Positions 27,079 to 30,140 of a DNA stretch of 64,000 nt are shown piece after piece. The stretch lies in assembly GCA_016125385.1 (NCBI GenBank), contig WGLV01000008.1, positions 1-64,000 of the forward strand. Direction: 5' to 3'. The DNA comes from a bacterium (GTDB lineage Bacteria > Hinthialibacterota > Hinthialibacteria > Hinthialibacterales > Hinthialibacteraceae). The notes beneath the pieces were generated by a model. It saw only the letters and a program-made list of their open reading frames with translations. It was not told the DNA's origin and searched no databases. Position 1 is the first letter of the stretch. Each line of letters opens with the position of its first letter. Position numbers and translations under genes: made by a program.

Positions 27079-27858
27079 TCAGTCGGTCTTGCGCACCACC
27101 ACCCCGCGCTTTTGCAGGTAATGTTTGATATCGCGGATGGTGTAAGCGCCGTAATGGATCATTGAGGCGACGATGGCGGCGTCCGCCTCGCCCTCGGTGA
27201 AAATACGATGCAGGTGATCGGGGGTTCCGCCGCCGCCGCTGGCGATGACGGGAATCCCGACGGCGCGCGCTACTTCGCGGGTAAGTTCGACGTCGTAGCC
27301 CTGTTTTACGCCGTCGCAGTCGATGCTGTTCACCACCAGTTCGCCCGCGCCCAGTTCTTCACCCCGCTTACACCAGGCGATGGCGTCGAGGCCCATCGCC
27401 TTACGGCCTCCATTGATAAAAATCTCATACCCTGAGGGCACGGCCTCGCTGGCGGGCGTGCGTTTGACGTCCATACTCAATACGATGCACTGGCTGCCGA
27501 AAGCGCGCGCGCCTTCGGCGATGATTTGCGGATTCAAAACGGCGGATGAGTTCACGCTGACTTTTTCCGCCCCCGCGAGCAACACGTTTCGCATGTCTTC
27601 CAGCGTACGCAACCCGCCCCCCACCGAATAGGGGATGAAGATCGATTCGGCGGTGCGGCTTACCACATCGATCATGATGCCGCGCGCGTCGCTGCTGGCG
27701 GTAATGTCGTAAAACACGATCTCGTCGGCGCCGTCTTCGTAATACCGCTTGGCCATTTCAACCGGATCGCCGAGGTCGATGTTGTTTTTAAATTCAACGC
27801 CCTTGGTGACCTTGCCCTCGCGGACGTCGAGACAGGGAATGATGCGTTTGGTCAGCAT
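27079..27858 (-). CDS. hisF: Imidazole glycerol phosphate synthase cyclase subunit
   Basis: TIM-barrel cyclase of 259 residues that, with HisH ammonia, makes imidazole glycerol phosphate and AICAR from PRFAR in histidine synthesis. Catalytic Asp D11 in [10 protein letters not shown] and D130 in VLSMDVKR are both present, with the phosphate-binding loops SVGGGLRT and [16 protein letters not shown] precedes the ATG. It directly follows hisH, so the two subunits are co-made. No other histidine gene is in the window. Confidence 0.95.
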
Positions 27859-27885: not shown

Positions 27886-28512
27886 TCAGGTCCAGTTTTC
27901 ATTCCGGCAGAAGTTCTTCAGCATTCGCAGGCCGATGGGGCCGCTTTTTTCGAGGTGAAACTGGGTCGCAACGATGTTTTCCTTCGCCACCGCGCAGGTA
28001 AAGCGCAGGCCGTATTCCGTCTCGCCGATGGTTACGCCGGGGTCTTCCGGTTCACAGTAAAACGAATTGACGAAATACACGTCCGATGGATTCGCGACGT
28101 TTTCATACAATGGATGTTCGCGCACCTGGTGAAGCTGGTTCCAGCCGATCTGGGGAATCTTGATCGGGCCATTGGGACCGTGATCGGGAAAACGCCGTAC
28201 CTTCCCTTTGAGAAAGCCCAGGCATTCCGCGTCGTCTTCCTCACTCCATTCGAACAGGATCTGAATGCCGATGCAGATGGCGAGAAACGGCTTTTTGCGC
28301 TCGATCACCTGATCGCGGACGATCTGGTCGAGCCCGGTTTTGCGCAAGACGTCCATCGAAGCGCCCGCCGCGCCAACGCCGGGAAAAATGATCCGGTCTG
28401 ATTCTTCGATCACGCGGCGGTCCTGCGTGATTTCCGCTTCAAAGCCCAGGTAGTTGACGGCGCGCTTGACGCTGGTCAGGTTGCCGCCTTCATAATCGAT
28501 AATCGAGATCAC
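27886..28512 (-). CDS. hisH: Imidazole glycerol phosphate synthase glutamine amidotransferase subunit
   Basis: Class I glutamine amidotransferase of 208 residues supplying ammonia to HisF. Catalytic triad: C80 in FLAICIGIQ, H185 and E187 in TQFHLEKSG. The N-terminus IIDYEGGNLTSVKRA and oxyanion-strand region FPGVGAAGASM fit HisH. Two sites differ from the usual form: YFVNSF in place of the common YFVHSY, and FHLEKS in place of FHPEKS. The start is GTG with GGAGCG upstream. It lies 17 bases after tyrS and just before hisF. Confidence 0.93.
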   Translation of the reverse strand: MISIIDYEGGNLTSVKRAVNYLGFEAEITQDRRVIEESDRIIFPGVGAAGASMDVLRKTGLDQIVRDQVIERKKPFLAICIGIQILFEWSEEDDAECLGFLKGKVRRFPDHGPNGPIKIPQIGWNQLHQVREHPLYENVANPSDVYFVNSFYCEPEDPGVTIGETEYGLRFTCAVAKENIVATQFHLEKSGPIGLRMLKNFCRNENWT

Positions 28513-28529: not shown

Positions 28530-29672
28530 TCAGCGCAACTTCACCTTTTTCATTACGTCGCGCAGATTTTGCAAGACGGCTTTGGGGCCGGGTTGTGAAA
28601 AATGATCCCGAACCGGCGTCAGCAGATCGATGATGTTATCGGCGACGGCGGTTTTCAGGTCCATCGGGTGCAACTGTTTTTCCGCGAAATCGGCGCAGAG
28701 TTCATCAAAGGTATCGTAACTCAGATCGCCGCCCCATTCGGGCTTGCGTGATATTTTCAGCGGGCCGCGCCCCAGCGCGAACAGGGTGTGTTTCGCCCAG
28801 TCGAGCACAGGGTTGAATTCGATCTCACCCTCGGGGCAGAACGCCTTCTTGATCTTGCGGCGAATTTCATCCGGCTCATCGGTGATAAAGACGGCGGTAT
28901 CGGGCTTCGATTTACTCATCTTCATCGCCGCCCACACGTCCTGCTTGCGTTCCGGGTCGATGGGCCACATCGGCGGCTTGCCGAGACCGATGAGCAGGTG
29001 GTGATGAATGGCGAGCGGCGTGATACGCTCTCCGTCCGGCGCGGTGAGTGGCAGCGTCTTGATCTGGTTGGCCACGTCGAGCGCGATGACGTGCGCCTTG
29101 CGCTGATCCTGACCGGCGTGGGCGAGGTTGACGCCCATCGTATAAATATCGGCAACCTGCATGGGCGGATAGACCAGTTTGGCGAAATCGACCGAATCGC
29201 CCTCGGCGCGCCCGAGAATGGTGATCGAACGCATGATGCGATTGAGCGTGGTGTTTTTGCACACGTCGATCAGCGCCGTCCAGTAATCCGGGTTGTCGCG
29301 ATACAGGTCGGACCCCAACACCAGTTTGACGCCGTCAGGATCGCCGCCCACCGCTTTGAGACAGGCTTTCAAGCCCTCCGCGAAGTAGTCGTAGGCGAAC
29401 GAGCGGATCAGCTCGATGTCGCCGCCCAGCTTGTCGTTGATCCAGCTGTGCCAGTCGGCGAGAAACAGGGTGCATTCCACCCCGGCGCGCTGAAAATCGG
29501 CGACTTTGGCCATACACTGCACGCCCGTGCCGAGATGAATCTCGCCCGACACTTCAAAGCCGATGTAATGACGCAGGGGAATGTTTTTATCGAGGTATTC
29601 GCGCAGGCGGTCTTCGGTGAGAATTTCCTGCACGTTGCGGGTGATGAGTTGAAATCGTTCGTCGTTGTTCAT
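28530..29672 (-). CDS. tyrS: Tyrosyl-tRNA synthetase, archaeal/eukaryotic type
   Basis: Class I aminoacyl-tRNA synthetase of 380 residues, attaching tyrosine to tRNA-Tyr. It lacks the C-terminal S4 RNA-binding domain of ordinary bacterial TyrRS and ends in the short helical anticodon-binding domain of archaeal enzymes. Recognisable archaeal-type blocks: YIGFEVSGEIHLGTG (HIGH-like; the last position is Thr), LADWHSWINDKLGG, VYPPMQVADIYTMGV, KMSKSKPDTAVF (KMSKS), KKAFCPEGEIEFNPV and LHPMDLKTAVADNIIDLL. These match the general plan of Methanocaldococcus TyrRS. The tRNA-Tyr gene ends 70 bases upstream on the same strand and carries the C1:G72 pair that this enzyme type recognises. The hisH gene follows at 17 bases. 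Confidence 0.9.
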   Translation of the reverse strand: MNNDERFQLITRNVQEILTEDRLREYLDKNIPLRHYIGFEVSGEIHLGTGVQCMAKVADFQRAGVECTLFLADWHSWINDKLGGDIELIRSFAYDYFAEGLKACLKAVGGDPDGVKLVLGSDLYRDNPDYWTALIDVCKNTTLNRIMRSITILGRAEGDSVDFAKLVYPPMQVADIYTMGVNLAHAGQDQRKAHVIALDVANQIKTLPLTAPDGERITPLAIHHHLLIGLGKPPMWPIDPERKQDVWAAMKMSKSKPDTAVFITDEPDEIRRKIKKAFCPEGEIEFNPVLDWAKHTLFALGRGPLKISRKPEWGGDLSYDTFDELCADFAEKQLHPMDLKTAVADNIIDLLTPVRDHFSQPGPKAVLQNLRDVMKKVKLR

Positions 29673-29741
29673 AGCCGGTGCTTTTCGATCGGATTCGGGC
29701 TGGCGCCGCGATGGAACGTCTTCGGGTATAAAATAAAAACG

Positions 29742-29824
29742 TCCAGGGGGAAGGATTCGAACCTTCGAAGGCTTGCGCCGGCAGGTTTACAGCCTGCTCC
29801 CATTGGCCGCTCGGGCACCCCTGG
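29742..29824 (-). tRNA. tRNA-Tyr (GUA) with long variable arm and C1:G72 pair
   Basis: Reading the minus strand from 29824, the acceptor CCAGGGG pairs perfectly with CCCCTGG near 29742, with discriminator A and no encoded CCA. Anticodon stem GCAGG/CCTGC encloses the loop CTGTAAA, anticodon GTA, tyrosine. T arm GAAGG-TTCGAAT-CCTTC. The variable region of 14 bases (CGGCGCAAGCCTTC) and the D arm CCCGAGCGGCCAA are those of bacterial class II tRNA-Tyr. The first pair is C1:G72, not the bacterial G1:C72. Five T residues follow the 3' end closely. A TATATT box about 15-20 bases upstream of the 5' end could be its promoter -10. Confidence 0.96.
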
Positions 29825-30140
29825 AGTCTTTGTGATCCGGTCGAATATAAAAACGGGATGGCGTTTGAAAATCAACCCCGGAGAGAGGCGTCTTTCGCCG
29901 CGTCGTTTTTCAGGCGGTTTCCGGAAAGCCGTTTTTCCGCGCCGCAAGAGCCCGAATCGGGCCCGCGGATCAGCCGGATAACGAAAATCGCTCCCTCAAA
30001 CCAGCCTTTACCAATTTTGCTTTGAGCCTCTCGAATGTCAAGGCGCGGGACGCGCTTTCCACAACTTGAATCCACGCGCGGGGGCGCCACAATGGGGCGC
30101 TGGTTCCACCAGTCACTACTTCAACGGGTTCAAGGGTCTT
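29825..30140. other. Divergent intergenic region upstream of tRNA-Tyr and the epimerase gene
   Basis: This 316-base gap must hold the promoters for the tRNA/tyrS run on the minus strand and the epimerase on the plus strand. On the minus strand TTGATT and TATATT occur, but their 20-base spacing is poor. I see no further gene. Confidence 0.4.

Follow-up and report, generated by a model that had tools for sequence, protein, structure and literature searches.

A class II tRNA-Tyr with a C1:G72 pair adjoins an archaeal-type tyrosyl-tRNA synthetase in a large-genome, non-CPR bacterial family

How does a bacterium come to carry a tRNA-Tyr of bacterial build that begins with the pair C1:G72, directly beside a tyrosyl-tRNA synthetase (TyrRS) of archaeal type? 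Bacterial TyrRS reads G1:C72 and archaeal and eukaryotic TyrRS reads C1:G72; on account of this difference in the first acceptor pair, it was long held that the enzyme could not be transferred from one domain to another. The locus lies in a window of 64,000 nucleotides, the whole stretch of DNA that was analysed (assembly GCA_016125385.1, contig WGLV01000008.1). The reading favoured here, at a probability of roughly 0.8, is that an archaeal-type TyrRS replaced the bacterial tyrS in an ancestor of the window's family (f1), that the resident tRNA-Tyr was re-labelled, and that the two would now be the sole charging pair for tyrosine.

A tRNA-Tyr(gta) gene was called on the minus strand by ARAGORN at 29742-29824, matched RF00005 and scored 108.7 bits on covariance model R1; the call also rests on alignments A2 and A3. 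The tRNA is class II, has a GUA anticodon, C1:G72 and A73, and lacks an encoded CCA. Its 5' acceptor strand CCAGGGG (29818-29824, minus strand; C1 is base 29824), invariant in six genera, is followed by U8 and G9 and pairs with the 3' strand CCCCUGG (29743-29749, minus strand; G72 is base 29743), after which comes the discriminator A73 (base 29742). The acceptor register was set by column-for-column alignment to the G1:C72 tRNA-Tyr of relatives. An alternative helix of 8 bp closed by U-1:A73 was rejected, as the alignment puts C1 at position 1. The initial annotation had described a tRNA of class II and bacterial build that has C1:G72 and all seven acceptor pairs intact, and both ARAGORN and the alignments show this to be correct. 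The body, with its long variable arm, is that of a bacterial class II tRNA-Tyr; the G1:C72 of that class is absent, with C1:G72 in its place in 6/6 f1 genomes. The U at position -1 (base 29825 of the window) is likewise invariant in the six f1 genes and could pair with A73, lengthening the acceptor helix of the precursor. A T-rich run immediately follows the tRNA in all six f1 genomes (in the window, in the gap at 29673-29741), so that the tRNA, although it adjoins the TyrRS gene, may have a termination or processing of its own, separate from that of the TyrRS mRNA.

The variable arm forms a hairpin, GGC-GCAA-GCC (29770-29779, minus strand; alignment columns 46-55), of 3 bp with a GNRA-type loop. 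Its middle pair is G:C, A:U or U:G over the six f1 genera and is paired in every case; as one varying pair in six sequences, this lends modest support to continued selection on the arm as a structure. Bacterial TyrRS recognises the arm through its S4 domain (PMC5370408). In f1, where that reader is gone, the arm is perhaps kept for tRNA folding or for the avoidance of mischarging.

The next gene on the same strand, as had been proposed, is the TyrRS, which begins after a gap of 69 bases (28530-29672, minus strand, 380 aa). It scored 410 bits on NF006330 (archaeal-type TyrRS, PRK08560; cut-off 220) and 104.5 bits on the bacterial tyrS model TIGR00234, under the cut-off of 113.8. No S4 domain was found in the protein, for which Pfam gives the catalytic family PF00579 alone. 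The best PDB match was the Pyrococcus horikoshii TyrRS 2cyc (residues 2-369, E=5e-133). The equivalents of Methanocaldococcus jannaschii Arg132, Arg174, His283 and Asp286, residues that contact C1:G72 and G34 (1J1U), are kept as R148, R191, H335 and D338, and the equivalent of F261 is W or H; the M. jannaschii reference sequence differs from 1j1u at one residue. Judged from sequence, the enzyme is expected to charge its C1:G72 tRNA-Tyr, and the pair is plausibly orthogonal, in part, to ordinary bacterial TyrRS. Downstream on the minus strand follow a hisH-like glutamine amidotransferase (27886-28512; PF00117), which begins 17 bases after the TyrRS stop and is adjacent in f1 loci, and hisF (27079-27858; PF00977), about 1.9 kb from the tRNA.

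The phylum sample comprised 14 genomes, including six of f1, each from a different genus and of 5.1-6.9 Mb, and three of the sister family f2. Archaeal-type TyrRS was found in 6/6 f1 genomes (396-411 bits on NF006330), in each case with a C1:G72 tRNA-Tyr 36-112 bases upstream; a bacterial tyrS above cut-off was found in none (0/6), nor was any other TyrRS. The seven genomes outside f1 in which a tRNA-Tyr was detected (families f2, f3 and f5) all have G1:C72 and a bacterial tyrS, and the TyrRS of f2 and f5 carries the bacterial motif DQWGN; in G010 neither tRNA-Tyr nor TyrRS was detected. Enzyme type and pair 1:72 have thus switched together, and the recurrence of the arrangement in six genera excludes chance. 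Pattern matches in f5 considered as tRNA-Tyr (CTGTAGA...) were tmRNA. One f3 genome, G001 (loci L104 and L278), holds in addition to its main pair a second G1:C72 tRNA-Tyr along with part of a second bacterial tyrS, which contains an in-frame TGA; these may be contamination or a duplicate in decay. Members of f1 stand in GenBank as 'Omnitrophota' isolates Zod_Metabat.949, Ch114 and SURF_12. The SURF_12/OLB16 lineage had been placed in Omnitrophica by mistake (PMC10066038); Candidatus Hinthialibacterota is the name given to OLB16 (PMC11382960). By the names of its relatives, rather than by a species tree, the phylum of f1 would be that one (GTDB OLB16).

The origin of the enzyme was examined in a tree of 85 rows which excluded ordinary bacterial TyrS, so that the contrast with the latter is drawn from the model scores. 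The f1 sequences formed a single clade on a long stem (support 100/100) amid DPANN, Asgard and CPR sequences, and their closest relatives outside the family were from DPANN or unnamed archaea (58-61% identity). They joined a CPR clade, Daviesbacteria, weakly (support 63/38). A shared bacterial origin of the f1 TyrRS was not rejected by AU tests (p 0.08-0.17), nor was its grouping with Chloroflexota, Dormibacterota and Planctomycetales sequences (AU p 0.085). The enzyme nests among DPANN and Asgard sequences, and its ultimate donor would be an archaeon; both direct archaeal transfer and passage through a CPR bacterium are possible routes. The initial annotation had named the enzyme an archaeal type without S4, had called for such a tree, and had proposed that the lineage exchanged its TyrRS. 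The first claim holds by the NF006330 and TIGR00234 scores, Pfam and the tree, in which the protein groups with archaeal sequences; the exchange is supported by the family scores, the tree and the lack of a bacterial tyrS.

Outside the acceptor stem, f1 tRNA-Tyr is 0.70-0.90 identical to that of f2, f3 and f5, and 0.62-0.81 identical to the C1:G72 tRNA-Tyr of CPR bacteria. The corresponding value for Escherichia coli tRNA-Tyr is 0.69-0.85, and since bacterial tRNA-Tyr bodies are generally conserved, likeness of the body by itself says little. In the acceptor stem, f1 differs from f2 and f3 exactly in that pairs 1 and 2 are inverted, and pairs 3-7 are the same; the f5 acceptor differs (GGGGGGA). 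The neighbourhood was also compared, in a synteny spotted post hoc. hisF lies 2.3 kb from tRNA-Tyr in 3/3 f2 genomes, is 72-74% identical there to the window's hisF and has an inverted orientation relative to the tRNA; it lies about 8 kb from tRNA-Tyr in f5 (G011), and was missing near tRNA-Tyr in f3, in G012 and, within f1, in G003. This synteny fits a tRNA kept at its old locus with a TyrRS inserted beside it. As the body is as bacterial as those of relatives and hisF is nearby as in f2, the window's tRNA is probably native to the lineage. The earlier claim that a native tRNA adapted to an archaeal TyrRS is accordingly favoured by body and synteny, though short of proof.

The tRNA and the TyrRS may instead have arrived together as a ready cassette from another bacterium, for instance a CPR bacterium where the switch had occurred earlier, in which case no re-labelling took place in f1. 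The constant adjacency of the two genes in all six f1 genera is what such a transfer would leave; some CPR genomes possess a class II C1:G72 tRNA-Tyr, which in a few cases shares a locus with the TyrRS, and the tree drew the f1 enzyme, weakly, towards a CPR clade. Against this, the f1 tRNA bodies are nearer to tRNA-Tyr of their own phylum than to any CPR C1:G72 tRNA seen, hisF is found near tRNA-Tyr also in f2, where the pair is G1:C72, and a scan of 80 loci returned no locus outside f1 with tRNA-Tyr beside TyrRS within the flanks. Joint transfer is therefore considered unlikely, at perhaps one chance in five. That a large-genome family outside the CPR independently swapped its TyrRS for an archaeal one, and that its native tRNA-Tyr was re-labelled where it stood through two inverted acceptor pairs, is held to be slightly better than an even bet.

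The assignment to the cell's housekeeping machinery was examined genome-wide. In the window's genome (completeness 95.8%), RF00005 gave 44 tRNA matches, of which one is a tRNA-Tyr, and model R1 concurred; PF00579 identified two proteins, the archaeal-type TyrRS and a bacterial-type TrpRS. A second tRNA-Tyr and a bacterial tyrS, for which the initial annotation had advised a search, were thus both absent from this genome; neither of the outcomes that it had named as contrary to its reading was obtained. The pair is, as far as 95.8% completeness shows, the sole tyrosine-charging pair of the cell. The tRNA-Trp has A1:U72 and G73 and the TrpRS is bacterial-like, so the tryptophan system is unswapped. 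Accessory TrpRS-A copies are present in CPR bacteria (Mukai et al., PMC5370408), and by analogy the TyrRS might be an accessory enzyme or part of a system for a non-canonical amino acid; this is highly improbable, as it is the only TyrRS of a genome whose only tRNA-Tyr has a normal GUA anticodon, and the tyrosine-site residues Y36, Q172, D175 and Q190 are kept. Although all of the genomes are metagenome-assembled, an archaeal or CPR contig misplaced in a bacterial bin can be set aside almost entirely, given the same layout in independent assemblies of six genera, the position beside hisH and a hisF that resembles that of f2, f1 proteins that are 74-79% identical to one another and at most about 61% to those of any archaeon, and the lack of a second TyrRS in any f1 genome of the six. 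Neither contamination nor an accessory TyrRS nor a second tRNA-Tyr stood up to testing.

Under replacement with re-labelling, the order of events would be as follows. An f1 ancestor would have gained an archaeal-type TyrRS gene, inserted between tRNA-Tyr and hisH, and would then have lost its bacterial tyrS. The resident class II tRNA-Tyr would have changed from G1:C72 and G2:C71 to C1:G72 and C2:G71, and the new pairs would let the TyrRS, a reader of C1:G72, A73 and the anticodon, accept the resident tRNA. The variable arm would have been left without an S4 reader, yet still base-paired.

Several known systems invite comparison. The tRNA-Tyr of P. horikoshii is short-armed. Its TyrRS (2cyc) is the closest structure match to that of f1, but has an archaeal host. 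The M. jannaschii pair (1j1u), which is used in genetic code expansion, has the C1:G72 identity and the recognition residues in common with f1; unlike f1, its TyrRS is shorter and its tRNA is without a long variable arm. The nearest precedent is that of Mukai et al. (2017; PMC5370408), who described CPR bacteria with archaeal-type TyrRS and V-armed C1:G72 tRNA-Tyr. Those cases share with f1 a TyrRS without S4, a V-armed C1-G72 tRNA-Tyr, the occurrence of archaeal-type TyrRS and C1:G72 in one bacterial genome, and DPANN-like TyrRS relatives; unlike them, f1 is not CPR, has genomes of 5-7 Mb, shows fixation throughout the family with tRNA and TyrRS always adjacent, and has relatives with the unswapped pair for comparison. 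In the genomes sampled here, archaeal-type TyrRS was found in 39/380 of a CPR phylum and in 3/61 of a phylum related to Chloroflexota/Dormibacterota. The Chloroflexota/Dormibacterota genomes resemble f1 in having archaeal-type TyrRS and C1:G72 without a bacterial tyrS above cut-off, whereas they carry a class I tRNA-Tyr, in which the variable loop is short and CCA is mostly encoded, and a TyrRS that forms a separate group (87/96). Archaeal-type TyrRS stands at the Chloroflexi/Dormiibacterota loci L158, L179, L182, L184 and L290, and the tRNAs at L191, L192, L193, L200 and L290; in these records the enzyme and the tRNA form were apparently both replaced. The CPR genome G014 (Moraniibacteriota) carries two archaeal-type TyrRS from distant clades of the tree (L149/L222 and L210), and near one of the two genes lies a V-armed C1:G72 tRNA-Tyr.

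The initial annotation had left it undecided whether such a case was already reported: for CPR bacteria it was (PMC5370408), and for the f1 lineage no report was found. Reports of an archaeal-type swap outside the CPR were likewise not found in the literature, in a search whose scope excluded most subscription journals. As the same combination was described in the ultra-small CPR bacteria in 2017, the kind of event is known; the f1 lineage and the before-and-after comparison that it allows look new. As a natural pairing of a class II tRNA with an archaeal TyrRS, the system may be usable in the engineering of orthogonal pairs. A family-wide swap outside the CPR, together with unswapped relatives, could show how the identity of an essential tRNA changes without miscoding. 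Family f2 preserves the state before the swap, and the way in which an identity rule crossed between domains could then, if the reading is true, be reconstructed and tested step by step.
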